Positions 17,663 to 37,986 of a stretch of DNA of 40,366 nt are shown here, piece by piece. The translations under genes were made by a program, and so were the position numbers. Below the pieces are notes generated by a model that searched no databases, was not told where the DNA came from, and worked only from the letters and a program-made list of their open reading frames with translations. Numbering within the stretch: position 1 is the first letter of the stretch; each line of letters opens with the position of its first letter. Source of the stretch: Sunxiuqinia sp. (GTDB lineage Bacteria > Bacteroidota > Bacteroidia > Bacteroidales > Prolixibacteraceae); assembly GCA_003246935.1 (NCBI GenBank), contig QKCF01000079.1:1-40366 (forward strand), written 5' to 3'.

Positions 17663-17890
17663 ATGAAAAAGAAAATTACTATTTCTTTGTTCGGTGCGTT
17701 TGTTCTTTTAAACTTCTTTATATCCCCGAATTATCGTTCGGAAAGTCACGCACAAATAAATTTGGAGATGCTATCAGCATGCGCAGACGAATCGGTTGAA
17801 GAACCACCGGGGCAAATATATCCTTCGCCTTCTAGCGAAGTTCCATCAGAATCCTGGTTTTGGGAGTTGTTAAATACACTCTTCGAATAA
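17663..17890 (+). CDS. Small NVEALA-like leader peptide 1
   Basis: MKKKITISLFGAFVLLNFFISPNYRSESHAQINLEMLSACADESVEEPP...: short exported peptide with LEMLSACADE at the leader/core boundary. Confidence 0.55.
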   Translation: MKKKITISLFGAFVLLNFFISPNYRSESHAQINLEMLSACADESVEEPPGQIYPSPSSEVPSESWFWELLNTLFE

Positions 17891-17972: not shown

Positions 17973-19922
17973 ATGGGGGGTAAGACTGTATCATATTATC
18001 TGCATGTTTTCATCATAATTGTGCTATCGGCAGGGTTCATAGCTCCGTTAATCGTAGATTCAGAGTTGTATGATTCTACACGAATGGGTAAGATATTCTT
18101 TTTTTCTAGGTGGATGATTGTGTTTGTTATTGCATGCTTACCTATCTACTTTATGAATAAGGCGCAGCAAATTGATAAATTGACAATTGCTGTTTTGGCT
18201 TGGGGTATTTGGATCTTAGTCAGAGGGAAAAACGGAGGTATCTGGTATGATGAAAAATTCTTTTGGTTCTCTGGCTGTTTTGTCTTTTATTTTCTGGCAA
18301 CCACATTACTAAAAGAAATAACAACCCGAGGCTGGGAACAACTTATACGAATCCCGTTAGTAGTAATAGTCCTTGTTGCGGCAGTTGAGGCCGCACTAGG
18401 GATACTACAACTTTACGGGTTGGCCCCCATTTACCACGGGCAGTTTAAAATTTCGGGGCACTTTTTTAACCCGGCGCCCTATGCGGGCTTCCTGGTAGCT
18501 TCACAGCCCTTTGCTTTGCTACTTTCGTCAGTTAGGCCTGATACGATAATCAATAAAATTATGCACTGGCTGGGCTATATGTCGGTTTGCTTGATACTGG
18601 TTGCGATCCCTTCCACCCGGAGCCGGGCGGCTTACCTGGGCTTGGGAGCTGTGTTGCTGGTTTGGCTTTTGTTCCGCTATCATCCCTGGATATATATTAA
18701 GCGCGTTTTAAGCACCCAGCTAAAGAGACAACTAGCATTCTTTATAATTCCATTGATTTCTATTATTCTCCTCACAGGTCTTTACCTGCTAAAAAAGGAC
18801 TCAGCTTCGGGACGCCTGTTAATATGGAAAGTAGCAGTACATACAATTGCAGAACGTCCATTATCTGGACATGGTTTTAACACGACACAAGCCACTTTTG
18901 CGCCAGTTCAAGCAGATTACTTTGCTGCTGGTAATGGAACCGAAAATGAAAGTATATTGGCAGGTAGTGTCCGTTGGGCTTTCAATGAATTTTTACAAAC
19001 CGCCTCAGAAACGGGCATTGTCGGGCTTGTGCTATTTTTATTAGTTACTGCATACGCCTTGTTTTTTAAAATACGGATATCACCACAATCTCGAAAACAT
19101 CGATTAATGATAGGCGCCGCCCGCTCATCAATGTCTGGAGTCTTGGTTTTTAGCTGCTTTTCGTATCCGTTTTATTCAATGCCCATTACATTACTATTCT
19201 TTTTCTCGTTAGCTGGGTTAACAACGTTGCATTTCACTGGGGCAAATGAGTTGAAAACAGTTTTAAATATATTCCAGAGGCTTCCAATTTTCGTTGGTAT
19301 TTTGCTGTTGACTATGTTCTATATTGTGGAAACTCCAAAGCTAAAACAAGCTTATGGGCAGTGGAATAAAGCAGAGCAATCATACAAGATAGGAGCTTAC
19401 CGGAAAGCCAATGAAGGCTTTGCCAAAGCCTATCCTACTTTGGTCCATAATGGCTTGTTTTTACAACAGTACGGTAAAAGTTTGGAGATGGAAGAAAGAT
19501 ATCCGCAAGCTATAGCCTTGCTAAAACAGGCCACAAAATATTATAACGACGAATTTACAGCGATTACCCTAGGTAATTGCTACCGGAGCATAGGAGATCA
19601 CGACAAGGCTGAAATGCAATATCGGCTGGCTGCCAACGTCGTCCCTAATAAATTTTACCCTCTGTATTTGCTGGTTAAACTATATGACGAAACGGGACAA
19701 ACAGAAAAGGCAAGAGCAATGGCAAGGGAGCTACTAAATAAAGAAGTAAAAGTTCCCTCGAAGGCTATTGAAGAAATAAAAGCAGAAATGGAGAGACTAA
19801 TACATAAAAATGCAAGCTTGCAAAATTGGGGCGAACTTGAAGGGAGTCAGCAAGAAGTCTGTACGCCTCAAACCGTTTTCTGCCTGCACCCTTCCTATTT
19901 AAGAAAGGAGGTGGCAGTATGA
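17973..19922 (+). CDS. O-antigen ligase (Wzy_C)-like polytopic membrane protein with C-terminal TPRs
   Basis: Many TMs; ISGHFFNPAPYAGFL, STRSRAAYLGLG, GHGFNTTQATFAPVQADYF; C-terminal TPR AEMQYRLAANVVPNKFYPLYLLVKLYDETGQTEKAR. Confidence 0.82.
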   Translation: MGGKTVSYYLHVFIIIVLSAGFIAPLIVDSELYDSTRMGKIFFFSRWMIVFVIACLPIYFMNKAQQIDKLTIAVLAWGIWILVRGKNGGIWYDEKFFWFSGCFVFYFLATTLLKEITTRGWEQLIRIPLVVIVLVAAVEAALGILQLYGLAPIYHGQFKISGHFFNPAPYAGFLVASQPFALLLSSVRPDTIINKIMHWLGYMSVCLILVAIPSTRSRAAYLGLGAVLLVWLLFRYHPWIYIKRVLSTQLKRQLAFFIIPLISIILLTGLYLLKKDSASGRLLIWKVAVHTIAERPLSGHGFNTTQATFAPVQADYFAAGNGTENESILAGSVRWAFNEFLQTASETGIVGLVLFLLVTAYALFFKIRISPQSRKHRLMIGAARSSMSGVLVFSCFSYPFYSMPITLLFFFSLAGLTTLHFTGANELKTVLNIFQRLPIFVGILLLTMFYIVETPKLKQAYGQWNKAEQSYKIGAYRKANEGFAKAYPTLVHNGLFLQQYGKSLEMEERYPQAIALLKQATKYYNDEFTAITLGNCYRSIGDHDKAEMQYRLAANVVPNKFYPLYLLVKLYDETGQTEKARAMARELLNKEVKVPSKAIEEIKAEMERLIHKNASLQNWGELEGSQQEVCTPQTVFCLHPSYLRKEVAV

Positions 19923-19970: not shown

Positions 19971-20228
19971 ATGAAAAATAAAATCAAAATTATTGGAGTC
20001 TTTTCTGCAGTTTTATTAGCTGTGTGTAGCCTATATGTTTCTTCTTCGAATACTCCTAACGGATATTCCTCATTGTCACAATTATTGTTTATCAATTCCG
20101 CACATGCAGAATGTGACGAAGGAACTCGAACTATTTCGAATGCAATAGAAGATACTGATGCCAACGATTGTTGTATCTGTTGGAGCGATCCAGATCCCTA
20201 TAGTAGTAGCACTTGTAGCTGCGGTTAG
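19971..20228 (+). CDS. Small NVEALA-like leader peptide 2 with Cys-rich core
   Basis: MKNKIKIIGVFSAVLLAVCSLYVSSSNTPNGYSSLSQLLFINSAHAECDEG...DCCICWSDPDPYSSSTCSCG; six Cys after AHAE. Confidence 0.65.
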   Translation: MKNKIKIIGVFSAVLLAVCSLYVSSSNTPNGYSSLSQLLFINSAHAECDEGTRTISNAIEDTDANDCCICWSDPDPYSSSTCSCG

Positions 20229-20348
20229 GATACATACCCGTTTCTTTTAAAGAAAGTCTCTTGAAAAAAGCGATATGCTCATACATTTGATTGTTCTGTA
20301 CAAACCAACAGTTCCATTAGTATGCGTATATGCGCAGAATATTACTTA

Positions 20349-20391
20349 TTCCAATATGTCCTGTATGTAAGTTCGATAGGGCATATTGGAG
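20349..20391. repeat. Inverted repeat/RNA hairpin
   Basis: TTCCAATATGTCCT (20349-20362) pairs with AGGGCATATTGGAG (20378-20391): 14 continuous pairs allowing G-U. Confidence 0.6.
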
Positions 20392-20413
20392 TATATTATC
20401 AACAAAAAAGTGA

Positions 20414-20476
20414 AATTGTTAATATACGTTGACTTTGCTAGGGATAGCCCTAATAAACTTACTCATATTAACAATT
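20414..20476. repeat. Nested inverted repeat/hairpin
   Basis: AATTGTTAATAT (20414-20425) / ATATTAACAATT (20465-20476) perfect 12-bp arms, enclosing TAGGG-ATAG-CCCTA (20439-20452). Confidence 0.7.
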
Positions 20477-20534
20477 GTAGATTAATATACCTAAAGCGAG
20501 GTCTATTGCTTAAATACCCCAATACCATAATAAA

Positions 20535-21671
20535 ATGAGAAAAGTAAACATTATTGGAATCTTTATAATTACAACTCTTTGGGCTGGATGCAAAATGAGA
20601 GACGATAAAATGAGATCAGATGTCCCTGTACTTAAGCCTGTTGAGCAAAGTGTAGATAAGATAAAGACTCAATTTAGAACTGTAGCAACGCCTATACCTT
20701 TAGAAACTAATAAAGAATGTGTAGTTGGATATATTACAAATATTCATGCAACTAAAGACAGGATTTATATTATGGATAGAGATAATTTCTATTTATTTGA
20801 CAGTGATGGGAAGTTTTTGAAAATTCTTCCGAAAGGTAAAGGACCAGGAGAAATAACTCGACCTATGACATTTAAGGTTAACAAAGACAAAGATGAAATC
20901 ATTATCTTGGATAACGGCATCTGGATAAATTTGTTTACGTTAGATGGAACGTTTAAAAAGCGATATCAATTAAAAATGTCTATTCGAGATGTAATAAGAA
21001 TTTCAGACACAAAACTATTATTACATACGGGTTATTCTGGGAATAATCAGGACCATCTTTTATATATCTTCGATACCCAGCAAGAAGGTATAACTGCAAA
21101 ATATATATCCAATGAAGATTTGATTCTAAAAGACTTTGCAATCACTACATACAATAATTTTTCAGAGTATAGAGACACTATGTATTACCATTCATCTAAT
21201 TTACAAACCATTTATAAAATAGATGATTTGAAGCCTGCTCCAGTTTTTGATATTGATTTTCAGAATTTTATGCCTCCTACATCGTTCGTGAAGAAATTCA
21301 CAAAAACTAGAAAATTCCTTCAAGAATCAAAGGAAGGAGGCTATATCGGAGCTATTACATATTTCGATAAGTTTAATAAATTTAGTCTATTGGGCGTAAA
21401 GCACAAGAAATATAATTGTGGATTTATAGATAATAGCCAATCTGATATATTTTTAACCAATACTAGTGAGTTGTTCAATTTACCCGACATCCCTTCCCTA
21501 ACAATTCCTAAATGTCAAAGTGACTCCTCGTTATATTTTGTTATAGAACAATATGAACTATTAAAATCCATAAAACAGAATCAAACTAAATTGCCCACAT
21601 GGCTGGAAGGAGTTCACTTAAGTACTAATGACAATCCTATTATCCTTAAATTGGATATTTTAGATATATAA
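20535..21671 (+). CDS. 6-bladed beta-propeller lipoprotein-like protein
   Basis: Lipobox-like TLWAGCKM; IPLETNKECVVGYITNIHATKDRIYIMDRDNFYLFDSDGKFLKILPKGKGPGE, the propeller signature found next to NVEALA peptides. Confidence 0.8.
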   Translation: MRKVNIIGIFIITTLWAGCKMRDDKMRSDVPVLKPVEQSVDKIKTQFRTVATPIPLETNKECVVGYITNIHATKDRIYIMDRDNFYLFDSDGKFLKILPKGKGPGEITRPMTFKVNKDKDEIIILDNGIWINLFTLDGTFKKRYQLKMSIRDVIRISDTKLLLHTGYSGNNQDHLLYIFDTQQEGITAKYISNEDLILKDFAITTYNNFSEYRDTMYYHSSNLQTIYKIDDLKPAPVFDIDFQNFMPPTSFVKKFTKTRKFLQESKEGGYIGAITYFDKFNKFSLLGVKHKKYNCGFIDNSQSDIFLTNTSELFNLPDIPSLTIPKCQSDSSLYFVIEQYELLKSIKQNQTKLPTWLEGVHLSTNDNPIILKLDILDI

Positions 21672-21675
21672 AACC

Positions 21676-22326
21676 ATGCAAAAAAACAAGGCTATTTATT
21701 TATTCTCTGGGATAATTGCATTATTCATATTTGTAGTATTCGGAGTATATTGTATATCAACAATACAAAAAGAACGGAATACGGCAGATATTATTGAAAA
21801 GGACTACAATTCTATCTCACAACAAAACGAATACCTCCAAAGCTTTATTAAAATACAATTGAGCATTGGCAACAGTAGTATTGGGCAAAAAGTAGATGGA
21901 AACATCAGATTAACCCGCGAGGATGGAAAATTATTCAAACTAGGAGAAATCGATTTTAAAAATTATTTATTGATTTTTAGAATGGGCGAAAAGCATTGTT
22001 CAATTTGTGTAGAAAGAGCTTTGGAAAGAGTTTTAAGTAGTGGAATTGATGTTCCATATCAGAATGTGGTCATCCTGGCTTCATACAGCAATATCAGACA
22101 CATTAGATATCTAAAACGAATTAATAAGATTAAATGGCAAATATATAATTTGGATGAACCAATTAGAATCAATGCGGAAGAATACAATTATCCTTATTTT
22201 TTATTAATAAATAAGAACTACGAGGTTGTACATACCTTTTTCCCCGAAAAGGAGCTGCCCGAGTATACAAAACATTTCCTAGACGGAGTTAAAAATATAT
22301 TATACATTAAACATGAAAATAGCTAG
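21676..22326 (+). CDS. Membrane-anchored thioredoxin-like protein with CxxC
   Basis: N-terminal TM; NYLLIFRMGEKHCSICVERALERVLSSG; YFLLINKNYEVVHTFFP C-terminal strand pattern. Confidence 0.55.
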   Translation: MQKNKAIYLFSGIIALFIFVVFGVYCISTIQKERNTADIIEKDYNSISQQNEYLQSFIKIQLSIGNSSIGQKVDGNIRLTREDGKLFKLGEIDFKNYLLIFRMGEKHCSICVERALERVLSSGIDVPYQNVVILASYSNIRHIRYLKRINKIKWQIYNLDEPIRINAEEYNYPYFLLINKNYEVVHTFFPEKELPEYTKHFLDGVKNILYIKHENS

Positions 22327-22547
22327 AAAGTCTAGAATGAAGGTGTTGAATGGGATTAAGAGGAAGGGCTACTCCTAAAAGGATGTAAAATTAACATAAT
22401 GCTCATTTGTTTAGTGAGCCCGTTTAAAGATCTTGTCGAATCTAATTATTTCTTGACAAAATAATATAAATGGGGAAGGTCGAAACTTTGAAGAGATGTG
22501 ATTTCATATTAGTCTCTTAAATATAAATATATCACTAATACGACTAC

Positions 22548-22566
22548 TAAAGTTCAAAGAACTTTA
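22548..22566 (+). promoter_or_regulatory. Perfect hairpin ending on the start codon of the first RND gene
   Basis: TAAAGTTC-AAA-GAACTTTA, 8-bp arms, last base is the A of ATG (22566). Confidence 0.5.
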
Positions 22567-25500
22567 TGCACACTTTAAATAGTTCTGTAAGATATTTCTC
22601 TTATTTCACTATCATAACCACTTTCATAGCCCTGACAATAGTTGGTTTGGGCGTAATACCCCTGCTTAACCTACGTCTATATCCAAGTAAAGCTAAGCCG
22701 GGAGTTACGGTAAGATACCAGATGCAGGGAGCCAGTGCGCTGGTCATAGACAGCGAGGTCACATCCCGACTGGAAGGGCTTTTGTCGCGGGTTGAGGGTC
22801 TGAAAAAGCTTGCTTCGCGGACTTCGGGCGGTAGTGGCTGGATCAGTTTGGAGCTGGATAAGGGGACGGATATGGATGCCGTCCGTTTCGAAGTTGCTAC
22901 TTTAATCCGGCAGGTCTATCCTTCTTTACCAGAACGGGTGAGCTACCCGGAAATCCGGACTAGTCGCCCGGACGAGGAGGAAAAGGCGGAAACAATGCTA
23001 ACCTTTAGTATGAGCGGCCCAGGGCAGATTAGTGAAATCGGCAATTATGCGAATGAATCTCTGGCACCCAGCCTATCGGAACTGCCAGAGATAAACGGCG
23101 TTTTTGTTTACGGGGCCAATTCGCGCCGGATTGATTTGGTGTATAATAAGGAATTGCTCAAAAATATCGGACTTTCCGTTTCTGAGCTTGCATTGCAAAT
23201 CCGGGAATATTATTGCCAGTCCAACCTGGGGAGCGTCGTTGAACAGTCTTTTTCAGGTGATGAAACCTTTGTGCCGGTGACCTTTTCGGGTTGGGCAGCC
23301 GACAAGTTTTACCCGGACGATATCCGTATCAAGCACGAGGGACGTTTGTTCAAATTAACAGACCTGGTTGAGGTGAAAGAGCGGGAAAACGAACCGCAGA
23401 GTTTTTACCGGATCAACGGACTGAATACGGTCAACATCGTGGTGCAATCGGCGCCGGGTACTAACCAGATTGTCACAGCCGGTTTGGTTAAGGACAAGGT
23501 CGGGAAAATGCGTGCCCAATTACCACAGGGTTACAGTATTAATGTGAGTTACGACAGTTCGGTGCAACTGAAAAAGGAACTCAACAAGATTATTCTGCGC
23601 ATCCTTTCGTCGGTGTCCATTTTGTTACTTTTTGTGCTGCTGGTCAGCCGAAGCGGGCGTTACCTGTTGGTAATCAGTTTCAGTATCCTGGCAAACATTT
23701 TGATAGCCTTTATTTTTTACTATTTGCTGGGCGTCGAAATCCACATGTACTCGCTGGCCGGAATCACTATTTCGCTGGGCATCCTCATCGATAATACCAT
23801 CGTTATGGCCGACCACCTGCGCAACGGGCATGGCATTAGCGTGTTCCGGGCCATCCTGGCGGCGACTTTTACAACTATGGGGGCATTGGTGGCCGTTTTC
23901 TTTTTGGACGAAGATTTGCAACTTCGGCTCATTGATTTTACCTGGGTCATCATGATTAACCTGGCGGTATCGCTGCTGGTGTCCCTGTTTTTTATCCCGG
24001 CCCTGCTCGACAAAATGCGCCTTCGGAAAGTAAAAACCAAGAGCACCTACCGGCACATCCGCCGGAAAGTGAAACTGACCCGTTTTTACGGTAAGTCAAT
24101 CCGGCTGATGGCGCGGTTCCGCTGGGCGCTGTTGCTGCTTGCCGTTCTTGGTTTTGGGCTTCCGGTTTATATGTTACCAGCGTATTTGCAGGAAGGCCAT
24201 TGGTACTCTGGCTGGTACAACAAGACTTTGGGCGCCCAATTTTATCTCGAACATATCAAACCGGTTACTGACGTCGCGCTTGGGGGAACGTTGCGCTTGT
24301 TTACCGAGAAAGTACAGCACCAAGCCCTTAGTAGCTCGAACCGCCGGACATGCATTAATATTTCGGCAACGATGAATGATGGCAGCACACTGGAACATAC
24401 CAACGAAGTGTTTGAGAAACTGGAGAGTTTTCTGGCACAATACGATGAAATAGAACAGTTTGAAACCCGGATCTATAGTCCTTCATCGGCGCAGATAACG
24501 GTGTTGTTCAAGCCGGAATACGAATTTGGAGGTTTTCCCTTTACATTGAAAAGCGAAGCAGAAAGTAAAGTCGTTGATTTAGGGAGCGCCGATTGGACTG
24601 TGAGTGGAGTTGGGCGGGCTTTTGACAATTCGCTAAACGAAGGTTACCGCAACAGCCGCATCCAGCTGTATGGCTACAACTTGGAAGCGCTAAAGGGCTA
24701 TGCCCAAAAGATAAAACACTACCTGGAAGAAATCCCCCGGGTGGAAGAAAATTCTATTTTTATTAACGGACGCTCGACCTCAGGGGGCAATATCCACCGC
24801 GAGTATTATTTGGATTTAGATCTGGATAAGATGCGCCGTACCGGTATTTCGCAAGGGACGGTGCTGAGGAACTTGTCAGACCTTTCACGGGAGGAAGACA
24901 AAGTTATATCTGTTTACCGGGAAAGGGAACAACAGAACGTTTATCTGTTACCGGAGCAAACTTCGCTCCCCGATTTCTGGGAAATCAACAACCGACCCCT
25001 TGACTTGAGTAACAGCCGGGTAACCCGATTAAACGGTTTGGGTAGTTTCAGCAAAGAACGGGAGCAAGACCTGATCAACAAAGAAAACATGGAATACACC
25101 ATGGTCGTCGAGTACAACTTTATCGGGAGTTACGGGCAGAAAGAATATATCATCGGACAAGTCGAGAAGCGCCTGGTACAGGAGCTTCCGGTTGGTTACC
25201 GGATTAAGCAACAGTATTTCCGGGGAGGGAGCTGGATGGACGAAAAGACGGATCATACACAGGTATGGCTTCTTTTGCTGGTCGCAGCTATTATCTTTTT
25301 TATCTGCGCTATTGTCTTCGAGTCCCTGTTGCAGCCCCTGGCCGTAATCATCATGGTGCCGCTGTCATTTATCGGGGTCTTTCTCACCTTTTGGTATTTC
25401 GACCTCGGTTTCGACCAGGGAGGCTATGCTTCGCTGCTGCTCTTAAGCGGGTTGACGGTTAACTCAGCGCTGTATATTCTGAACGACCTGAACACTATGC

Positions 25501-25823
25501 GGAAACGTTTTGCCTGCCTCTCTCCTGTGAGGGCGTATCTGAAAGCTTACAATAACAAACTGGTGCCGGTGGTACTCACCCTTTTGTCGACTGTGCTGGG
25601 TCTGGCTCCTTTTCTTTCGGGGGGCAAGAAGGAAGCATTCTGGTTTAGTCTGGCTGCCGGTACCATCGGGGGACTTCTGTTCTCGATGGTGGCCATTGTG
25701 GTCATCCTCCCGCTGTTTGTGCGGGGAATTAAACCGAAGCGGTTAAGGAGTTTTAAATGGCTGAGGAGAAAAGCGACCCGGAAACAACTACGAAAAATTC
25801 TTTTTATAACGATAAAAAACTAA
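22566..25823 (+). CDS. Efflux RND transporter permease subunit 1
   Basis: 1085 aa RND architecture; ISLGILIDNTIVMADHLRNGHGISVFRAILAATFTTMGALVAVFF. Confidence 0.93.
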   Translation: MHTLNSSVRYFSYFTIITTFIALTIVGLGVIPLLNLRLYPSKAKPGVTVRYQMQGASALVIDSEVTSRLEGLLSRVEGLKKLASRTSGGSGWISLELDKGTDMDAVRFEVATLIRQVYPSLPERVSYPEIRTSRPDEEEKAETMLTFSMSGPGQISEIGNYANESLAPSLSELPEINGVFVYGANSRRIDLVYNKELLKNIGLSVSELALQIREYYCQSNLGSVVEQSFSGDETFVPVTFSGWAADKFYPDDIRIKHEGRLFKLTDLVEVKERENEPQSFYRINGLNTVNIVVQSAPGTNQIVTAGLVKDKVGKMRAQLPQGYSINVSYDSSVQLKKELNKIILRILSSVSILLLFVLLVSRSGRYLLVISFSILANILIAFIFYYLLGVEIHMYSLAGITISLGILIDNTIVMADHLRNGHGISVFRAILAATFTTMGALVAVFFLDEDLQLRLIDFTWVIMINLAVSLLVSLFFIPALLDKMRLRKVKTKSTYRHIRRKVKLTRFYGKSIRLMARFRWALLLLAVLGFGLPVYMLPAYLQEGHWYSGWYNKTLGAQFYLEHIKPVTDVALGGTLRLFTEKVQHQALSSSNRRTCINISATMNDGSTLEHTNEVFEKLESFLAQYDEIEQFETRIYSPSSAQITVLFKPEYEFGGFPFTLKSEAESKVVDLGSADWTVSGVGRAFDNSLNEGYRNSRIQLYGYNLEALKGYAQKIKHYLEEIPRVEENSIFINGRSTSGGNIHREYYLDLDLDKMRRTGISQGTVLRNLSDLSREEDKVISVYREREQQNVYLLPEQTSLPDFWEINNRPLDLSNSRVTRLNGLGSFSKEREQDLINKENMEYTMVVEYNFIGSYGQKEYIIGQVEKRLVQELPVGYRIKQQYFRGGSWMDEKTDHTQVWLLLLVAAIIFFICAIVFESLLQPLAVIIMVPLSFIGVFLTFWYFDLGFDQGGYASLLLLSGLTVNSALYILNDLNTMRKRFACLSPVRAYLKAYNNKLVPVVLTLLSTVLGLAPFLSGGKKEAFWFSLAAGTIGGLLFSMVAIVVILPLFVRGIKPKRLRSFKWLRRKATRKQLRKILFITIKN

Positions 25824-25829
25824 CCAATA

Positions 25830-26918
25830 ATGTTGAACCTGAAAACGATAAAATTTGCGACCCTGTTTGTGGGGTTGTTGGGTGTTTCCCTACTGACAGG
25901 CTGTAGCAGCGGCGAAGCCAAACAAGCTCATGCTGCTGGCAAGCGGGAGCATACCGAGGAGGTAAATGTAGTCGTCACCTCGAAAGCCAGGCAGGGTATT
26001 TTTTATAAAGAATTTGAAAATAACGGGAGATTGACAGCCCGGCAGGGTGCAGTTCTGAACTTTGAACAATCAGGAAAAATTGTTGCAGTGAACGTTTCCA
26101 ACGGCGATCGGGTGGAGCAAGGCGATGTGCTGGCCGTCATCGAAGATTCGCAACAAAAGTACAGTTACGAAAAGGCCCTGCGGAACAAGGAGAAGTGCTA
26201 CCTGGCGCTGGAAGAAGCTTTGCTGAACCAGGGGCATTCGATAAACGATTCGGCATCGGTCCCGTCGGCGACCATGAAAATGGCATTGATCCGCTCGGGC
26301 TACCAGGATGCCATAAACGAGGTTATGCTTGCCAAACAGAACCTGGATGAGACCAAAGTGGTAGCGCCGTTTGCGGGGGTTGTTGCCGACCTCGAAGCCC
26401 GGGTTTTCAACGAAACATCAACGTATAAACACTGCTGTAGTTTGATTGATAACCGGGAGTTTGAAGTGAGTTTCCCGATGCTGGAAGCTGAAATGGCCCA
26501 ACTCCAAAAAGGAATGGATGTGGAAGTGGTCCCGTTTGCTTTTGAGGGCGACACGCTGCACGGCCGGTTGTTTGAAATTAACCCCAAAGTGGCCGATAAT
26601 GGCATGGTGGACGTAAAAGCGCTGGTGCCCAATAAAAACGGTCGGTTGACTGAAGGCATGAACGTAAAAGTAATGGTGCGCAAACCAATGGGAAACAAAA
26701 TTTATGTTCCCAAAGAAGCTGTTACCCTTCGGCAGGAGCGGAACGTGGTATTTGTAGAGAAGAACGATACAGCTTTCTGGCGCTACGTAGATGTGGGCGA
26801 GACCAATTCAGAATATACAGTGATTAACAAAAATATCAGTCCTGGGGAAGATGTCATTATCGAAGGTCATTTCAACCTGGCACACCTTTCACCGGTGCAG
26901 GTCATCAAAGAGAATTAA
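25830..26918 (+). CDS. RND periplasmic adaptor (MFP) lipoprotein
   Basis: Lipobox LLTGCSSG; NFEQSGKIVAVNVSNGDRVEQGDVLAVIEDSQQKYSYEKA...VVAPFAGVVADLEARVFNE. Confidence 0.93.
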   Translation: MLNLKTIKFATLFVGLLGVSLLTGCSSGEAKQAHAAGKREHTEEVNVVVTSKARQGIFYKEFENNGRLTARQGAVLNFEQSGKIVAVNVSNGDRVEQGDVLAVIEDSQQKYSYEKALRNKEKCYLALEEALLNQGHSINDSASVPSATMKMALIRSGYQDAINEVMLAKQNLDETKVVAPFAGVVADLEARVFNETSTYKHCCSLIDNREFEVSFPMLEAEMAQLQKGMDVEVVPFAFEGDTLHGRLFEINPKVADNGMVDVKALVPNKNGRLTEGMNVKVMVRKPMGNKIYVPKEAVTLRQERNVVFVEKNDTAFWRYVDVGETNSEYTVINKNISPGEDVIIEGHFNLAHLSPVQVIKEN

Positions 26919-26960
26919 GACAAGCGTTCCCCGTAAACTTTTAAACCTTTAAAACAAGCG

Positions 26961-28463
26961 ATGATACTATTTCAGCTAAGCAAACGACTAATCTTATTGG
27001 CCGGCGCGGTAATGATATGGAATCAGGTACATGCACAGACCATGGAGTTAACGCTGGATGAGGCGATTGCCTTGGGCAAGCTAAAATCGTTCGAGGCTTT
27101 CAGGGCAAAAAACAGCTTTTTATCCAGCGCACTCGATTACCAAACATCTTTAAGGTTGCTGTTCCCCAAAGCGACCCTTTCGGTCACTCCGTCCAATTAC
27201 AGCCGCTCCATCGAAGAGCAATGGGACTCGAACGACCAACAATACCGCCCCTACGAGGTTCAAAGCCTGACCTCAAGCGGACGAATCTCATTGACCCAGT
27301 ACGTTGCCAAGACCGGAGGGACAGTCACCATGACCTCGTCGCTGTACCGGTACAAAACCTTTAAGGAACAGGGGGACGACTATTTAGCTTATATTTCTAA
27401 CCCGGTAACCCTGAGTTATTCGCAAAACCTGACCGGGGTGAATACATTCAAATGGCGAATCAGAATGGATTCGGTAAGCTATCGGCAGGCACGCAAACAA
27501 TATCTGGAGGATGTTGAAAACACCAAGATAAAAACCATCAATCTGTTCTTTAACCTGCTGAATGCCGAGATGAGCTGCAAGATTGCGGAGCTGAACAAAA
27601 GCAACGCCGATACCCTGTTTTTTTTCGGGAAAAAGAAGCTTGATATAGGAGCGATCTCGCGGGATAATTACCTTAAACTGCAACTACGGAAGGTCAATGC
27701 GGGCATTTCGCTCGAAAGTTGCCTGTTAGCACTTGACGAAGCCCGGTTAGCTATGAACAACTTTCTTGAGCTTCCGAGGGAAACGCAAATCCGTTGCCAG
27801 ACCCCTTCGCAAATCCCTGATTTTGTGGTTTCCGCCGCAGATGCGCTATTAAAAGCCTTTGACAATAACCCGGATATGGCAGCGCTGGAAAACAAACTGC
27901 TGATGGCTGAACGCTCGGTGAAAATGGCTAAAGCAAACCGTTTTTCGGCCAATTTCAGTGCGACAGTTGGTTTGAACCAAAACCAGGAGAAGCTGACCGA
28001 TGCTTACCGGGACTTGAAAAACCAGGAATCCCTGTCGCTGACCTTATCGATCCCGCTTGTGGACTGGGGCGATACCAGGCGAGCCATCACCCAAGCCGAA
28101 CTTAACCGAGAACTGGCAGAAGAGAGCGCACGCAAAGAACGGGATGCGATCAGTCTTCAGGTAATCAATTTGGTCAATGGCTTCAACATAAAATACAAAC
28201 AGGTGGCCGCAGCTGCCCAGGCCGACAGCATTGCTCAAGTTACTTACCAGGTGGTGCAACAGCAGTTTATGCTGGGAAAAGCCAGCGTGCTCGAGGTAAA
28301 CAGTTCCTACACCGACATGCAGAACGCCCAAAACAGCTACCTGAATTCGCTCAGCAACTTTTGGGTGCAGCTTTATTCCATCCGCAGGCTTTGCCTGTAT
28401 GATTTTGAGATCGGCGCTGATTTGGAAGCCGATTTCGACAAGATAATAGAAACATATGAATGA
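26961..28463 (+). CDS. TolC-family outer membrane efflux protein
   Basis: Signal peptide; MELTLDEAIALGKLKSFEAFRAKN; C-terminal YQVVQQQFMLGKASVLEVNSSYTDMQNAQNSYLNSLSNFW. Confidence 0.92.
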   Translation: MILFQLSKRLILLAGAVMIWNQVHAQTMELTLDEAIALGKLKSFEAFRAKNSFLSSALDYQTSLRLLFPKATLSVTPSNYSRSIEEQWDSNDQQYRPYEVQSLTSSGRISLTQYVAKTGGTVTMTSSLYRYKTFKEQGDDYLAYISNPVTLSYSQNLTGVNTFKWRIRMDSVSYRQARKQYLEDVENTKIKTINLFFNLLNAEMSCKIAELNKSNADTLFFFGKKKLDIGAISRDNYLKLQLRKVNAGISLESCLLALDEARLAMNNFLELPRETQIRCQTPSQIPDFVVSAADALLKAFDNNPDMAALENKLLMAERSVKMAKANRFSANFSATVGLNQNQEKLTDAYRDLKNQESLSLTLSIPLVDWGDTRRAITQAELNRELAEESARKERDAISLQVINLVNGFNIKYKQVAAAAQADSIAQVTYQVVQQQFMLGKASVLEVNSSYTDMQNAQNSYLNSLSNFWVQLYSIRRLCLYDFEIGADLEADFDKIIETYE

Positions 28464-28512
28464 CCATTCCTCCGCTCCCCTGCACGGGAGATTGGTTTAA
28501 ACTGAATTACAA

Positions 28513-31500
28513 ATGGTAGAATTTCTTGTAAAAAGGCCTGTTGCCGTAATCATGACCTTTATTGCGTTCCTGATTTTAGGATTAGCAGCTATGAACCTGA
28601 TCCCGATCTCGTTATTGCCGGATATTGCGATCCCTGAAATCACCATCCAGGTCTCGGCGCCCGATAAACCTGTGAACGAGATGGAACAGAATTACATCCG
28701 CCCAATACGCCGCCAGATGTTGCAGCTCGGCCATCTTAACGATATTCAGAGCGTGGCCACCAATGAACAGGGCACAGTGCGGTTGACCTTTAAATACGGC
28801 ACCGATATTAATTACGCCTTTGTGGAGGTGAACGAGAAGATGGACGGTTTAATGCCTGCTATGCCTTCCGATTTCGAGCGTCCCCGTATCATCAAGGCAT
28901 CGGCTACTGATATCCCGGTATTCTACATGACCGTGATGCTTAAGCAGGAGTACGCCGATGAGCGCAAAGAGCGTTTTATGGAACTGAGCGAATTTTGCGA
29001 ACAAGTCATCAAAAAGCGGGTGGAACAACTTCCGGAAGTGGCTATGGTAGATATCAGCGGGATGGAGTATCCTGAAATCAGGATTTCTGCCGACCTGGAT
29101 AAGCTCCGGGTTTTGGGCATTGACTATAGTACCATTCAGTCGGCATTGGAAGAAAACAACATTTCGCTGGGCAATATCCGCGTACGCAACGGCATGTACG
29201 AGTTCAATGTAAAATATGCCACGCTGCTTAAAAACCGGCGCGACATTGAGCAGATCAGCATCCGCTCGGGCGACCGTATTTTTACATTGGGTGAACTGAC
29301 GAAAATTGAAGTTCGCCCCAAATCGGGCAAGGGCGTTTTTGTGGATAAAAAAGGGCAGGCCATCATCATGGCAGTCATTAAAAAATCGGATGCCCGGATG
29401 GAAGACCTGAAGGAACAGACCGGGAAACTAATGGACAACCTGAACGAAGATTATCCCCGTCTGCGCTTTGAGCTGTCGCGTAACCAGACTGAACTGCTGG
29501 ATTATTCCATTTCTAACCTTCAAAGCAGCTTGATAATTGGTGGTATCCTGGCCTTCCTGATCATGCTGCTTTTCCTGAAAGATTTAAAATCCCCCATCCT
29601 GATCGGTGTTTCCATCCCGGTCAGTTTGGTGGTTAGTTTGCTGTTCTTCTACTTGTTTAATTTGTCCATCAACATTATATCTCTCTCGGGGCTGATATTG
29701 GGTGTGGGAATGATGATTGACAATTCAATTATCGTCATCGATAACATTTCCCAGTATTATTCGGAAAACAGAAAAGGGGTGATCCAGGCGGCTATTGCCG
29801 GAACCAACGAGGTTATCCGCCCGCTGATCAGCTCGGTGCTGACAACCTGTGCCGTGTTTGTCCCGTTAATTTTTTTGAGCGGCATTGCCGGGGCTTTGTT
29901 TTACGACCAGGCTATGGCTATCACCATCGGGCTGGGCGCATCGCTGATTGTTTCCATCACCCTGATCCCCGTCCTGTACGCTGTTTTTTACAGCAGAACG
30001 GGAAAGAAGCCAAAAGCAAGGGTAGGTAAAAAGCCCAAAGCACTGCAGTGGATGCAGTTTTACCGGAATATAGAGAACAGCTATGCCCGGGGCTACGATT
30101 GGATTTTTGCAAACAGGCGATTATTTCTGCTGGGTACATTTTTACTATTATTGGGAGGGGGCTGGGCGTTTTCTGCTTTGACAAAAGAGCGTTTCCCGAG
30201 TTTTGAACAGACCGAAGCCGAAATTACGATCGACTGGAACCGGAACATTGGGGTGGATGAGAATCAAAGGCGCATGGAGGAGCTGAGGTCAGCAATAGAC
30301 AGCCTGACGGTGCAGTTTTCGTGTATGGTGGGCGAACAAAGCTTTATGCTGGAACAAGGTGATGTGCTGGGGGCATCGGAGGCCAAAATTTATTTTCAGG
30401 CTGAAAATGCTGCGGACAGGAAAGTTGCCTTGAATGAAGTCAGGCAGTGGATGACAGCCAATTACCCGGAAGCGCTCTACGAGGCGTCGCCCCCCGTAAC
30501 GGTTTTTGAAAAGATATTCGGGGATAACGAGTCTCCCCTGGAGGTGCGGTTGTGGACCGATGGCAGTAACCCTGTTCCCGACCCCGAAGTTTTGAATAAG
30601 ATCGCTGCCGACATCACGAAATTGTCGGCCAAATCGCCGGAGAAAAAAGCGCCTTTGCAGGAATATTATGAGATCAGCCCCCGTTTTGACCGGATTAAGC
30701 TCTACGATGTCCCGATAGCCCGTTTGACCAGCGTCCTGAAAAAATCGCTGAACCGGTTGTCGCTGTTTACCCTTCGGCAGGGGCAGTACGAAGTGCCGGT
30801 GGTACTGACCGGCAAACAGCGGGACATCTATGCCGTGATCCGTTCTGTCCGCGTACAGAGCAACGCCAAAGGGCAGGTTCCGGTGGACCAATTGGTCACA
30901 GTAACGCGGATTGCAGGCTACAAACTGTTGCAGGGCGGTAAGGAGGGGGTGTACGCTTCACTGTCGTTTGATATTCCTGACAATGAATTGGGCGTGGTAC
31001 AGAAGCAGATTCAGGAGGTATTGAAAAGCTACCCTAACGTGCATGTCAAATTTGCCGGTGCCTTATTTGCGAACCGCGAGCTGTTTAAAGAACTGGTCAT
31101 TGTGCTGGTTGTTGCTTTGCTGCTGCTCTATTTTATCCTGGCCTCGCAGTTCGAGTCGGTGCTACAACCCTTTATCGTTTTCATTGAAATCCCGATCGAT
31201 ATTGCCGGAGCCCTGCTTTTGCTGTGGCTTAGCGAAAACAGCCTGAACCTGATGAGTATGATCGGCATTGTGGTGATGACCGGGATTATCATCAACGACT
31301 CCATTTTAAAGATCGATACCATCAACGGACTGGTGCGCAGCGGGCAGCCGGTACTGGAAGCCATTCACATTGGTGGCCGCCGACGGCTGAAGCCAATCCT
31401 AATGACCAGCGCCACCACCATCCTGGCCATGGTGCCCTTCATGTGGGGGCACGATATGGGCTCGCGCCTGCAACAGCCACTGGCCTGGGCCATTATTGGC

Positions 31501-31578
31501 GGGATGACCATTGGCACCTTTGTCAGTTTGTACTTTGTGCCTCTGGCCTATTACTATTTAAACCGGAATAAAAAATGA
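28513..31578 (+). CDS. Efflux RND transporter permease subunit 2
   Basis: MVEFLVKRPVAVIMTFIAFLILGLAAMNLIPISLLPDIAIPEITIQV...GLILGVGMMIDNSIIVIDNISQYY...GIVVMTGIIINDSILKIDTIN. Confidence 0.95.
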   Translation: MVEFLVKRPVAVIMTFIAFLILGLAAMNLIPISLLPDIAIPEITIQVSAPDKPVNEMEQNYIRPIRRQMLQLGHLNDIQSVATNEQGTVRLTFKYGTDINYAFVEVNEKMDGLMPAMPSDFERPRIIKASATDIPVFYMTVMLKQEYADERKERFMELSEFCEQVIKKRVEQLPEVAMVDISGMEYPEIRISADLDKLRVLGIDYSTIQSALEENNISLGNIRVRNGMYEFNVKYATLLKNRRDIEQISIRSGDRIFTLGELTKIEVRPKSGKGVFVDKKGQAIIMAVIKKSDARMEDLKEQTGKLMDNLNEDYPRLRFELSRNQTELLDYSISNLQSSLIIGGILAFLIMLLFLKDLKSPILIGVSIPVSLVVSLLFFYLFNLSINIISLSGLILGVGMMIDNSIIVIDNISQYYSENRKGVIQAAIAGTNEVIRPLISSVLTTCAVFVPLIFLSGIAGALFYDQAMAITIGLGASLIVSITLIPVLYAVFYSRTGKKPKARVGKKPKALQWMQFYRNIENSYARGYDWIFANRRLFLLGTFLLLLGGGWAFSALTKERFPSFEQTEAEITIDWNRNIGVDENQRRMEELRSAIDSLTVQFSCMVGEQSFMLEQGDVLGASEAKIYFQAENAADRKVALNEVRQWMTANYPEALYEASPPVTVFEKIFGDNESPLEVRLWTDGSNPVPDPEVLNKIAADITKLSAKSPEKKAPLQEYYEISPRFDRIKLYDVPIARLTSVLKKSLNRLSLFTLRQGQYEVPVVLTGKQRDIYAVIRSVRVQSNAKGQVPVDQLVTVTRIAGYKLLQGGKEGVYASLSFDIPDNELGVVQKQIQEVLKSYPNVHVKFAGALFANRELFKELVIVLVVALLLLYFILASQFESVLQPFIVFIEIPIDIAGALLLLWLSENSLNLMSMIGIVVMTGIIINDSILKIDTINGLVRSGQPVLEAIHIGGRRRLKPILMTSATTILAMVPFMWGHDMGSRLQQPLAWAIIGGMTIGTFVSLYFVPLAYYYLNRNKK

Positions 31579-31630
31579 AAGGAGATAACTCCACAAACAA
31601 ATACTCAATGGGCATTAAACATCAGTTCTG

Positions 31631-31681
31631 GTAGCTCCCCCTTTCGGGAACAAAGGTATCAGAATTTTTTCAGGGAGCTAC
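31631..31681. repeat. Inverted repeat downstream of RND2 / upstream of leader peptide 3
   Basis: GTAGCTCCC (31631-31639) / GGGAGCTAC (31673-31681). Confidence 0.6.
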
Positions 31682-31749
31682 GGCACCCTGCCTGTGAAAT
31701 GATAGAGCAGGTGTTGAATCTAATAATTTTGGTAGAAAAATAATCAAAC

Positions 31750-32019
31750 ATGAAAAAGTTAATACTATTAGGAAGCATAGCTCTGTTGGGATGTTTAGCC
31801 TACGTACAAGGCAATTCAATAATTTTAAACTCACTACCGTCAAAAATTTCCCTGAGTAATATATTGTTAATATCGAATGCTGAAGGTGAGGATTTGCCTC
31901 CTGGTTACATTCTATTAGAAGAATATGGACTTATAGCTGAGGGTTACTATGAAGGTGAATATTGGATAGAACCAGAATATGGCTGCGTAGATGCTAATGA
32001 TAAGTGTTTACATCTTTAA
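31750..32019 (+). CDS. Small NVEALA-like leader peptide 3
   Basis: MKKLILLGSIALLGCLAYVQGNSIILNSLPSKISLSNILLISNAEGEDLPPGYILLEEYGLIAEGYYEGEYWIEPEYGCVDANDKCLHL. Confidence 0.6.
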   Translation: MKKLILLGSIALLGCLAYVQGNSIILNSLPSKISLSNILLISNAEGEDLPPGYILLEEYGLIAEGYYEGEYWIEPEYGCVDANDKCLHL

Positions 32020-32039
32020 GTACTATTTATTAAAACTTC

Positions 32040-32071
32040 AAGTGCAGGTAGGTTGGCAACTGCCTGCGCTT
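32040..32071 (+). repeat. Hairpin between leader peptide 3 and propeller 2
   Basis: AAGTGCAGG (32040-32048) / CCTGCGCTT (32063-32071), 9 pairs with one G-U, followed by a short T-rich segment. Confidence 0.5.
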
Positions 32072-32091
32072 AAGTTTCTTAGTTTAGATCA

Positions 32092-33330
32092 ATGAAATTT
32101 CATATTATGAAGATAAAAAAAAACTATTTCTTTATTCGAGTCATATTGTTTTTGGTATTTGTTAGCTCTTCCTGTAAATCGGATACTGATTTAAAATCTT
32201 TACCTGTGATAGAGATTTCACCTCAATTTTCTGATAACTCTTTTGTATTTGAAGATGTTTTTCAGTCAGTAGATATTATACCATTAGAAACTAACTCTGA
32301 ATGTCTTATTGGAGGGATTACAAAATTAGTTGAAGCATATGATAGTTATTTTATTATGGATAGAGTAAATAACATTGTTGCAAAATTTGATAATAAAGGC
32401 AAATTTATTACTAGACTGGGCGGAGTGGGAAATGGTCCAGGAGAGTATCTTAAGATTGAAGATTTACTAGTAGACAGAGACAACCGAAACATAAAATTGT
32501 ATGATGTCAGGGGGAGAAAAATAATCATTTACGGACTTGATGGTACTTATATAAAGGAGTTCAGATTGGACGCATTTTTGAAATCAATTGCTCTTGCGGA
32601 GAATGGCTATTATTGGGGTTTTATAGGAAATGTTACCAATTCCAACGAAATTCAAGGTAAAAAAGGGGGGGAGTTGAAATTTATTAAGTTTGATGAGAAG
32701 GGGAAAATATTGGCGAAGATTTTTGGGCAGAAAACCGCTGAAATTCATCTTTCTTTTTATGAACACATGTCTCCACAACAAGATGGTAGTATATCATTTG
32801 TAGAACCGCTTAATTGTCAGATTTTCAACCTGCGTGACAATAAGGTATCTTCTAGCTATGATATTAAATTTAATAGCTTTTCCGTCCCAGATAATATCCG
32901 AAATGTATTAAACAAAAGAAGAACGCCGGAAACTGTAACACAGAAGGATGCATTTAGTGATGCTAATAAGAACTATGTTCTAGGGTTTGTTAAGTTTTAT
33001 GAAAATAGTAATTGGATAGTCATGCAATATTCAGTTAAGTACAGGTTTCAATTTGCTTTTTATTATAAGCCTTCCGGTAAGCTTTTTGAGTCGAGCGGAC
33101 TACCTTGGTCTACAATAAATGCCAACTTATTTTTTACGCCATCTTATATAGATGATGAGTTTGTGTATTCTAGTTCATCCGCCTTTTACTTACATGAACG
33201 ATATAAAAAAGAACAGAGCGATAATAAAGTAGGGAAAGAAAGAATTAGAAGTTGGAATAAATTATTAAAGAATATAGGAATAAATGATAATCCAATCATA
33301 TTTAAATACAAATTGCAAAAACGCATTTAG
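32092..33330 (+). CDS. 6-bladed beta-propeller lipoprotein
   Basis: Lipobox VSSSCKSD; DIIPLETNSECLIGGITKLVEAYDSYFIMDRVNNIVAKFDNKGKFITRLGGVGNGPGEYLKIEDLLVD. ATG at 32107 is an alternative start. Confidence 0.88.
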   Translation: MKFHIMKIKKNYFFIRVILFLVFVSSSCKSDTDLKSLPVIEISPQFSDNSFVFEDVFQSVDIIPLETNSECLIGGITKLVEAYDSYFIMDRVNNIVAKFDNKGKFITRLGGVGNGPGEYLKIEDLLVDRDNRNIKLYDVRGRKIIIYGLDGTYIKEFRLDAFLKSIALAENGYYWGFIGNVTNSNEIQGKKGGELKFIKFDEKGKILAKIFGQKTAEIHLSFYEHMSPQQDGSISFVEPLNCQIFNLRDNKVSSSYDIKFNSFSVPDNIRNVLNKRRTPETVTQKDAFSDANKNYVLGFVKFYENSNWIVMQYSVKYRFQFAFYYKPSGKLFESSGLPWSTINANLFFTPSYIDDEFVYSSSSAFYLHERYKKEQSDNKVGKERIRSWNKLLKNIGINDNPIIFKYKLQKRI

Positions 33331-33331
33331 G

Positions 33332-33868
33332 ATGTATAGTTTCTTTAAATTATGTATTGTGGTCCTAGTAGTTAGTGGATTAATGGTGGCCTGCACTAAG
33401 GAATCCAGACAAGAAATGCAACTTCGCCAAAATATTAATAAAGAGTTGCGCATGGATATATTCCCTTCTGTTGTTAGTCAGCAAAAGGTTCAGGCGTATG
33501 ATGATTTTAGAAGGGAATACAAATATATTTCAGTAGTATTTTTGAGAAAGGGGTGTAAACCTTGCGATTTAAAAATTGCTGAGTGGCAGGAAAGAATTGA
33601 AAAAATTAAAGAACTTGAAGATTATTCAGTTCTTTTTATTTTTCAGGGGTACAGCTATAAAGAGATATCACAGTTAGATACAACGCGTTCTCTTAATTTT
33701 ATCTGTGATATACATTGCAGGTATTTAATCTATAATAGAGATATTCCAGAATGGATATTGGACAATACAATACTTATCGATGCTAGAAATCGAATAAAAC
33801 TTGTTGGTGATCCATTTAGTACTGATGAAAAAACTGAACAATTATATTCAATTATTAAAATGGATTGA
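33332..33868 (+). CDS. Thioredoxin-like lipoprotein with CxPC
   Basis: In-frame ATG 33332 (MYSFFKLCIVVLVVSGLMVACTKES) is preferred over 33284 because it removes most overlap with the upstream CDS; ISVVFLRKGCKPCDLKIAEW. Confidence 0.65.
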   Translation: MYSFFKLCIVVLVVSGLMVACTKESRQEMQLRQNINKELRMDIFPSVVSQQKVQAYDDFRREYKYISVVFLRKGCKPCDLKIAEWQERIEKIKELEDYSVLFIFQGYSYKEISQLDTTRSLNFICDIHCRYLIYNRDIPEWILDNTILIDARNRIKLVGDPFSTDEKTEQLYSIIKMD

Positions 33869-33985
33869 TGAATGTCATTTTCTTAATGTGTGTGGGAGAA
33901 GACAATAAAATTGTTTTCTAATTATTCTCCTACAGGTGAAGAATTTCACAAATAATTATGCACTTTTTAAAAGTTGATTATTGTA

Positions 33986-34396
33986 ATGAAAAACATACTG
34001 TTTAATTTGGTTCTTTTTATACTAACCTCATGCTCTTCAACTCCAACCGGAAGTGATGCTATAGTCCATTTTAATGACTTGGACTATAATTTTGCATCTA
34101 TTTCTTATATGGAAAATGCCGAGCACAATTTTGAGTTCATTAATACAGGTGGCTATCCTTTAGTTATTTATGACGTAAAAACCTCCTGCGGCTGTACGGT
34201 GCCGGAATGGACAAAGAAACCTATAAAACCAGGTGGCACAGGGGAAATCAAGATTAAATACGATGCTGATTTTCCAGGAGTGTTCCATAAAACCATCAAA
34301 GTGTATTACAACGGGAAAGATTCACCCAAAGAACTGAGCATAAGAGGAGAAGTGGAGTACCCGGATGATTTGGAAGGGACTCTGGATGAGAAATAA
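33986..34396 (+). CDS. DUF1573-family lipoprotein
   Basis: MKNILFNLVLFILTSCSS lipobox; HNFEFINTGGYPLVIYDVKTSCGCTVPEWTKKPIKPGGTGEIKIKYDADFPGVFHKTIKVYYN. Confidence 0.9.
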   Translation: MKNILFNLVLFILTSCSSTPTGSDAIVHFNDLDYNFASISYMENAEHNFEFINTGGYPLVIYDVKTSCGCTVPEWTKKPIKPGGTGEIKIKYDADFPGVFHKTIKVYYNGKDSPKELSIRGEVEYPDDLEGTLDEK

Positions 34397-35573
34397 AATG
34401 ATTGCGGTAATGGGCGGACTTATCCTGTTGGTAGGCTTTCTTACAAGGCTGCTATGGCTGATCCTTTTGCTGGCTTTGGTCATCGGGGTCTATTTGCTGA
34501 TCAATAAGCTAAAAATTGTTCGGAAACCTGTGTGGCTGGGCAGGGGGATAAAATCCGTGTTCATGTTTATATTCGTTTTTTGTGTAGCTATTTCTGTGCG
34601 GCTATTTTTGTTCGAAGTATTTTCGATTCCAAGCGGCTCGATGGAGAATACGTTATTCCCGGGTGATATTATTCTGGTAAATAAATTAACAGTGGGGCCC
34701 AAAATGCCTCGTTCTCCTTTTGAGATTCCGTGGATAAACATGATCTGTGCTCAAAATAAAAAGGCTTGGTCCCGGCGGAACGAGGTGTGGTGGAAGTACC
34801 TAAGACTTAAAGGGATATCTACGGTTCAACGAAATGATGTGGTTGTTTTTCGCCATCCTTATTCAAGGCGACGAGACTTTTTCCTTGTAAAACGCTGTGT
34901 TGGCCTTCCCGGCGATACGGTCCTCATTGACAATTCCACAGTTACAATTAACCGGAATATTCTTGGTGAAGCTCCGGATGCGAAGAAAATATACGATACC
35001 TGGCTAAAACTCTCGAACAATGTTGACCAAACTTTGAAACAAGAGGAAATAGAAATTCTCCCGGGAAATTATTTCGGTAAGAACACAACGGAGTACTTAC
35101 GTTTAAATTTGAGTGCGAAACAGAAAAATACACTTCAAAAGTACAATTTCATCGATTCGATACGAACAGAGCTAATTCCTCATCATGAAGACAATTATGT
35201 GTATAATAAAGACAAAACGATAGACTGGACAATAGCTGATTTTGGACCATTTATTATCCCTGCCAAGGGGATGACTCTTTTATTAACAGAAAAGAATTTC
35301 GCCATTTACAGAAGTGTCATTTCCCGATTGGAAAAAGAAAAATTAGAATTTATTGATGGCGAGTTCTATTTAAAAGGAAAACAAACCGACACGTTTACTT
35401 TTAAACATGATTATTACTTCATGTTAGGCGACAACCGAAATTTCTCAAACGATTCGAGGTTTTGGGGAGTGGTTCCTGAAGAAGAGATCGTCGGTAAGGC
35501 CAGTCTGATCTTATTCAGCACCACACAAAAAAACAAGAATGCTTCAAAAAGAATTTTTAAACCAATAATCTAG
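34386..35573 (+). CDS. Signal peptidase I (S26)
   Basis: FSIPSGSMENTLFPGDIILVNKLTVGPKMPRSPFEIPW (catalytic Ser), VKRCVGLPGDTVLID (catalytic Lys), MLGDNRNFSNDSRFWGVVPEEEIVGKA. In-frame ATG at 34386 preferred over 34365. Confidence 0.93.
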   Translation: MRNKMIAVMGGLILLVGFLTRLLWLILLLALVIGVYLLINKLKIVRKPVWLGRGIKSVFMFIFVFCVAISVRLFLFEVFSIPSGSMENTLFPGDIILVNKLTVGPKMPRSPFEIPWINMICAQNKKAWSRRNEVWWKYLRLKGISTVQRNDVVVFRHPYSRRRDFFLVKRCVGLPGDTVLIDNSTVTINRNILGEAPDAKKIYDTWLKLSNNVDQTLKQEEIEILPGNYFGKNTTEYLRLNLSAKQKNTLQKYNFIDSIRTELIPHHEDNYVYNKDKTIDWTIADFGPFIIPAKGMTLLLTEKNFAIYRSVISRLEKEKLEFIDGEFYLKGKQTDTFTFKHDYYFMLGDNRNFSNDSRFWGVVPEEEIVGKASLILFSTTQKNKNASKRIFKPII

Positions 35574-37817: not shown

Positions 37818-37976
37818 ATGGCTATTGCAATTAAAAGTATACCAACTTTGAAAAGTAAGGATGCAAAGGTCTTTGTGAAAAAGGCCTCGAAAACTTCTGT
37901 TAAACGTGCTTCTGTCAATTTCAGTAAGCAGGTTGAGGTTAGCCATGCCATTTTGAAAAAAGCAAATATGCGCTAA
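37818..37976 (+). CDS. 52-aa basic protein upstream of GNAT, putative antitoxin-like partner
   Basis: MAIAIKSIPTLKSKDAKVFVKKASKTSVKRASVNFSKQVEVSHAILKKANMR*; 10 bp before the GNAT ORF; below the ORF-track size cutoff. Confidence 0.6.
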   Translation: MAIAIKSIPTLKSKDAKVFVKKASKTSVKRASVNFSKQVEVSHAILKKANMR

Positions 37977-37986
37977 AAAAGGCGGT

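Follow-up and report, generated by a model that had tools for sequence, protein, structure and literature searches.

A recurrent peptide-propeller-thioredoxin triad beside an RND pump core in Sunxiuqinia suggests a candidate peptide secretion system of Bacteroidota

The closest described systems to the locus reported in this work are the NVEALA peptides of Bacteroidales (PF14055), the DUF5128 six-bladed propeller lipoproteins (PF17170), the TlpA/ResA/CcmG-type thiol-disulfide proteins, the MdtABC-TolC pumps, and the class II or double-glycine bacteriocins. The locus is located in a stretch of 40,366 nucleotides (the window) from Sunxiuqinia sp. (assembly GCA_003246935.1, contig QKCF01000079.1). 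The window is contig C140 of a draft genome (G000) that consists of 4.0 Mb in 492 contigs and is 86% complete. The locus carries two triads (A and B), each consisting of genes for a leader peptide (pepA or pepB), a propeller lipoprotein, and a thioredoxin (Trx)-fold protein (TrxA or TrxB). The triads flank the genes of two RND pump proteins (RND1 and RND2), one membrane fusion protein (MFP), and one TolC channel. Pfam lists the component families, but with no function. A literature search on NVEALA/PF14055, PF17170/DUF5128, and DUF4934, with subscription journals outside its reach, returned no relevant paper and no published function for NVEALA or for the peptides of the window. The locus looks like an undescribed peptide secretion system and not a local curiosity, and it probably serves specifically to secrete and mature small disulfide-rich peptides.

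The peptides of the window are similar to the NVEALA peptides in leader architecture, in a homologous leader profile, and in a Cys-rich tail. Both have the same neighbours, which are propeller, Trx, signal peptidase I (S26), Wzy, transglutaminase-like (TGase), and RND genes. The peptides of the window differ in that they do not have the NVEALA motif and do not match PF14055 (E>1). At E<=1, the PF14055 hidden Markov model (HMM) matched none of pepA, pepB, pep0 (a third leader peptide of the locus), or 11 triad peptides, and it had no match in G000. Triad peptides outside NVEALA have a leader profile that matches the NVEALA leader profile in hhalign at 96.4% with a score of 46, against at most 51% and a score of at most 24 for eight other protein sets. 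The NVEALA loci of other Bacteroidales families, which a separate PF14055 search brought up independently, hold propellers, TrxA/TrxB, S26, Wzy, TGase, MFP, and RND2. The window is therefore a divergent form of the NVEALA neighbourhood, since the leader profiles match and the NVEALA loci hold the same genes. A locus from a different family (L157) exhibits an NVEALA-propeller-TrxB/DUF1573 unit beside an NVEALA-propeller-TrxA unit. Two module types side by side are thus not peculiar to the window.

The other comparisons concern the partners of the peptides. The propellers of the window are clear members of PF17170 and are fixed between a peptide gene and a Trx gene, whereas most members of the family are not. 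TrxA is predicted to resemble the TlpA/ResA/CcmG-type proteins in its Trx fold, CxxC, and periplasm-facing membrane anchor, but it differs by a long helical stalk, sub-threshold Pfam scores, and coupling to peptide genes. TrxB belongs to a lipoprotein family of its own. The pump is similar to MdtABC-TolC in that two RND proteins, one MFP, and one TolC are encoded in one run, but it is encoded with peptides. The double-glycine bacteriocins, including bacteroidetocins, also have a short leader peptide and a linked partner gene. The locus differs from them because its genes at 15.8-37.5 kb include neither a double-glycine leader nor a C39 ABC exporter, and S26 and RND are present instead. It resembles the systems of a secreted peptide and a specific partner in kind, with an unusual set of parts.

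The triad recurs across Bacteroidota. An earlier note on the window, made from the sequence alone, had suggested a modular unit with one cognate propeller and one redox partner per peptide and with a shared transporter, and it had called for a survey of other genomes. The survey identified 67 distinct triads in 55 loci. The loci were gathered through Trx, propeller, RND1, or NVEALA genes, so these totals are not a random sample. The third gene is TrxA in 44 triads, TrxB in 20, and another CxxC protein in 3. Among 39 distinct A-type Trx genes, 32 are directly 3' of a propeller gene, and 27 of these belong to a full triad. The triad thus recurs as a unit, as the note had proposed. It often stands beside the same core, which consists of two RND pumps, the adaptor, TolC, a second signal peptidase I, a Wzy/TPR ligase, DUF1573, and the transglutaminase-like protein. 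Most core genes are present in L119/L178, L104+L105, L116, L118, L120, L108, L102, and L175, several of them near the order of the window. At least two core components were found within 20 kb in 20 of the 36 loci fetched through Trx only, compared with 1 of 20 regions of 20 kb that were drawn at random from four related genomes (Fisher p 1e-4). Related RND1 loci occur in Puteibacter, Marinoscillum, Alkalitalea, Natronoflexus, Geofilum, Alkaliflexus, Breznakibacter, Parapedobacter, and Sphingobacterium haloxyli, and the core therefore spans several orders. The closest relatives by RND1 protein belong to Marinilabiliaceae, Prolixibacteraceae, and Marinifilaceae. One to three triads accompany a single RND/MFP/TolC set (two in the window and in L119/L178, three in L104/L105). 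This ratio fits a shared transporter, and the gene order suggests that the RND pump may carry the peptides.

The peptide and the propeller are inherited together in those pairs of triads whose mature peptides are alike. Mature peptides (after residue 42) were compared by Smith-Waterman against composition-preserving shuffles, and eight pairs had z>7. The propellers are mutual best among the 67 triads in seven of these eight pairs, whereas 2000 permutations gave a mean of 0.05 and a maximum of 2. The two triads of L105 have peptides that match different outside genomes, each along with the matching propeller. The Trx proteins are mutual best in five of the eight pairs. The propellers of L241/L109, and also of L191/L105_4812 (z 5.9), are mutual best while their Trx proteins are unrelated (ranks 59/65 and 44/60). 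The Trx proteins of L259/L103 are related, yet not mutual best. The suggestion of one cognate propeller per peptide is thus supported. The suggestion of one redox partner per peptide fares less well: the Trx protein follows the peptide in five pairs, but two Trx families fill the slot. The co-inheritance is the strongest evidence, at the level of sequence, that peptide and propeller would form a specific pair.

The locus is a single gene run on the + strand from 15880 to 37533, as delineated by open reading frames (ORFs) and profile searches. Its features are as follows.
15880..17535, +, putative regulator (REG), a lipoprotein-like TPR protein with a transmembrane (TM) helix and a C-terminal LuxR-like helix-turn-helix (HTH), weakly BT3442-like; the same gene opens the locus in L032/L178, L105, and L120
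17663..17890, +, pep0, third leader peptide, 75 aa, almost Cys-free, without propeller or Trx partner; relatives at the matching place in other loci
17973..19922, +, Wzy, O-antigen-ligase (Wzy_C) domain (PF04932 7e-17) with a TPR tail
19971..20228, +, pepA, leader end ...INSAHA, 6 Cys in the mature part
20350..20391, +, strong hairpin between pepA and propeller A (region 20229-20534: -73.5 kcal/mol, z -4.8)
20535..21671, +, propeller A, DUF5128 lipoprotein (PF17170 2.8e-31)
21676..22326, +, TrxA, predicted TM helix, helical stalk, and Trx fold with CSIC (AF2 pLDDT 92.4; Foldseek PDB ResA/TlpA class)
22566..25823, +, RND1, AcrB family (PF00873 3e-98); relatives in other loci 36-72% identical
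25830..26918, +, membrane fusion adaptor, HlyD/CusB type (PF16576 3e-13)
26961..28463, +, TolC-type outer membrane channel (PF02321 1.6e-31)
28513..31578, +, RND2, AcrB family (PF00873 1.6e-166)
31750..32019, +, pepB, leader end ...ISNAEG, 2 Cys in the mature part
32040..32071, +, 12-bp terminator-like hairpin between pepB and propeller B (z -4.7)
32092..33330, +, propeller B, DUF5128 lipoprotein (PF17170 8.7e-48)
33332..33868 (start 33284 also possible), +, TrxB, lipoprotein with Trx fold and CKPC, of a family other than TrxA
33974..34396 (start 33986 likely), +, DUF1573 protein (PF07610 8.8e-33)
34365..35573, +, second signal peptidase I paralogue (PF10502 2.1e-38), with catalytic Ser (SGSM) and Lys (VKRCVGLPGD) motifs read in the sequence
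35593..37533, +, transglutaminase-like / F5-F8-type-C-like protein, with scores under the Pfam cut-offs; homologues also encoded by the recurring loci elsewhere

All six ORFs of the two triads are where the earlier note had placed them, with order and strand alike, and the two triads are far more than chance. The gene list of the note was incomplete because it had overlooked the third leader peptide at 17663-17890. Relatives of pep0 were identified at L032:2086, L105:9000, and L120:8446, where they are placed as REG/TGase-pep0-Wzy or beside REG, and both the leader and the F-rich tail of pep0 align with theirs. The three genomes of the same genus (G001-G003, 99-100% complete) gave no PF17170 and no TrxA match, and the locus is therefore accessory.

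The alignment of propellers A and B exhibits 25% identity over 412 columns (E 4e-18). Both score above the PF17170 gathering score (109 and 164 bits against 22.9), and they are the only PF17170 matches in the 4.0-Mb draft genome. The common motifs described before (IPLETN.EC, YIMDR/FIMDR, and G.GPGE) are present. In a tree of 78 propellers, propellers A and B are not sisters. Propeller A pairs with one from Alkaliflexus (SH-aLRT 96), and propeller B falls with two array propellers of another genome (98). These placements are provisional because the tree was built by a quick method and has long branches. No clear surface-export signal (acidic residues at +2..+6) was found after the propeller lipobox, which was itself found in 32 of 67 propellers only. 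In L037 (up to 14), L034, L031, L060, and L103, about 6-14 DUF5128 propeller genes stand head to tail in arrays that for the most part lack peptide and Trx genes. A TPR-HTH regulator of the REG kind comes after the arrays of L034 and L031.

Both third genes have the CxxC that had been noted (CSIC and CKPC). TrxA is predicted as one long helix (TM and stalk) followed by a Trx fold, and TrxB is predicted as a Trx fold (pLDDT 90.7). The best PDB matches of both include ResA/TlpA-type thiol-disulfide proteins. The earlier description of both as one kind of membrane protein holds for the fold and the CxxC, but not for a common family, and TrxB is a lipoprotein without the TM-stalk. TrxA against TrxB gave E 0.22 by BLASTP. 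The E-values of TrxB from models that contain TrxB are circular and were not used; a leave-one-out HMM from 27 A-type proteins, with TrxB excluded, scored TrxB at 1.3 bits and ruled out a single family. The link between them is visible solely in profile-profile comparison (hhalign 91%, E 1e-6). The lipobox Cys and the CxxC are invariant in the TrxB family. In several Bacteroidales loci (L156, L157, L160, L163, L164, L166, L279, L286-L291, and L293), TrxB and DUF1573 form a single fused protein. DUF1573 directly adjoins TrxB in the window, and module B is therefore peptide-propeller-Trx-DUF1573. The fusion would give DUF1573 a functional link to peptide redox handling.

The triad peptides have a common leader that consists of a basic start, a hydrophobic core, about 20 further residues, and an A-x-A-like end near residue 46, whereas their mature parts differ. 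Cys makes up 8% of the mature peptides and 1.4% of the propellers. Beyond residue 38, 55 of 67 peptides have an even number of Cys (p 5e-8). An extra leader peptide is located directly 5' of a triad at L105:6389, and its tail is very similar to that of the peptide belonging to the triad (CSGKGPIKCKCHC vs CAGDGETECKCYC). One propeller in L105 may serve both peptides. A stable hairpin (z < -2, median -4.5) was found in 38 of 40 peptide-propeller gaps; among the other gaps between same-strand genes in these loci, 19 of 79 have one (p 7e-13). The propeller and Trx genes are mostly within about 10 bp of each other or overlap.

The housekeeping S26 of the window's genome is located at G000:C317. One housekeeping S26 (about 450 aa) and a locus copy were found in G000, G006, G014, G015, G108, and G111, while G019 has several extra S26 with a second S26 in its locus. 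A single S26 was found in G001-G003, which are without the system, and in G102, which has triads and no locus S26 in the stretch covered.

These features suggest a mechanism in which each module would provide one peptide, one cognate propeller, and one Trx-fold protein. The long NVEALA-like leader would target the peptide to Sec and retain it at the inner membrane, and the second signal peptidase I of the locus would cut at A-x-A about 20 residues past the hydrophobic core. Cleavage at such a distance would be unusual for a housekeeping signal peptidase. The membrane-anchored or lipidated Trx protein may form or correct the disulfides of the peptide, and the propeller may bind the mature peptide of its module and act as chaperone, receptor, or self-protection. 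Export would fall to the shared RND1/RND2-MFP-TolC pump. The hairpin 3' of the peptide gene would favour more peptide than propeller.

Several observations weigh against a specific system of this kind. The Mantel test of peptide against propeller similarity over all triads gave r of about 0, because most mature peptides have no detectable mutual similarity. The co-inheritance comes from few pairs, some of them in related genomes, and the shuffle z-scores ignore the common Cys spacing; some pairs near z 7 have unrelated propellers. Fewer than two core components were found in 16 of the 36 Trx-fetched loci within the stretch covered. Neither a peptide nor a Trx gene adjoins 134 of 198 propellers, and the propeller family is therefore broader than the peptide system.

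If a single three-gene unit had simply been duplicated locally in tandem, without wider significance, this would account for the same order and orientation of the two modules. The propellers separate with support in the tree, the third genes come from different families, and L157 holds both unit types adjacent in another family. This explanation is very improbable and was rejected on the propeller tree and the Trx models. The word "duplicated" in the earlier note is thus misleading: judged from their sequences, the two modules are not a recent duplication. Envelope maintenance, where the pump, S26, Wzy, and DUF1573 serve cell-surface assembly and the peptides are structural or regulatory surface components, agrees with the recurrence of the Wzy_C ligase and the transglutaminase-like protein in the core. 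It leaves the variable peptide with a matched propeller unexplained, as well as the absence of propellers, TrxA, and the second S26 in the same-genus genomes, and we consider it rather unlikely.

Two further explanations concern the role of the pair, and each taken by itself is somewhat unlikely. The Cys-rich peptides could be pheromones, with the propellers as receptors and the TPR-TM-HTH regulator at 15880 reading the bound state. A regulator of this type, with the TPR part predicted to lie outside and the HTH inside, is the first gene of the locus in the window, L105, L120, and L178, and also follows the large orphan arrays of L034 and L031. However, the regulator was found in 7 loci only, against 45 for Wzy, although many loci are partly covered, and hypervariable mature parts suit either role. 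The peptides could instead be antibacterial toxins with the propellers as immunity proteins and the orphan arrays as defence against foreign peptides. Peptide and propeller are tightly linked, co-inherited partners, as in a toxin-immunity pair; orphan arrays reach 14 propellers (L037), and the closest relatives of propeller B are array propellers of another genome. On the other side, no inhibitory activity is known, PADLOC returned no match for the nine proteins run, and pep0 has no propeller. The orphan arrays fit antagonism with propeller protection, while the regulator fits signalling with a propeller receptor. We tentatively favour interbacterial antagonism, with the propeller as specific partner, over signalling.

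It is conceivable, with some reservation, that the locus belongs to a Bacteroidota-wide class of ribosomal peptides that exit through Sec, a signal peptidase I of their own, and a tripartite pump with two RND proteins. The propeller would be their sequence-specific cognate partner (immunity or receptor) and the Trx protein their private disulfide catalyst, and the NVEALA peptides of gut Bacteroidales would be in the same class. If true, this would give a joint explanation for abundant "unknown" Bacteroidota families (NVEALA, DUF5128/DUF4934 propellers, extra signal peptidases, and peptide-linked Trx). It would also offer a predicted pair of specific binding partners, and would point to a route of peptide export and to a class of secreted disulfide peptides among Bacteroidota of the gut and the environment.

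Other features were observed outside the gene run. The Rfam search of the window gave no match and the tRNA search found none. Mobile-element-like genes, named by eye from translations, are located left of the locus at 7273-13636, and include an excisionase-like HTH, a tyrosine integrase-like protein (7851-9113), and mobilisation and relaxase-like proteins (11629-12916). An AbiEi/AbiEii type IV toxin-antitoxin pair is located between them and the locus (13779-15564). A 105-bp tandem repeat in three copies that are 88% alike is located at 299-617 and is open on both strands. A small ORF (52 aa) followed by a GNAT acetyltransferase at 37818-38586 is a possible GNAT-type toxin-antitoxin pair.

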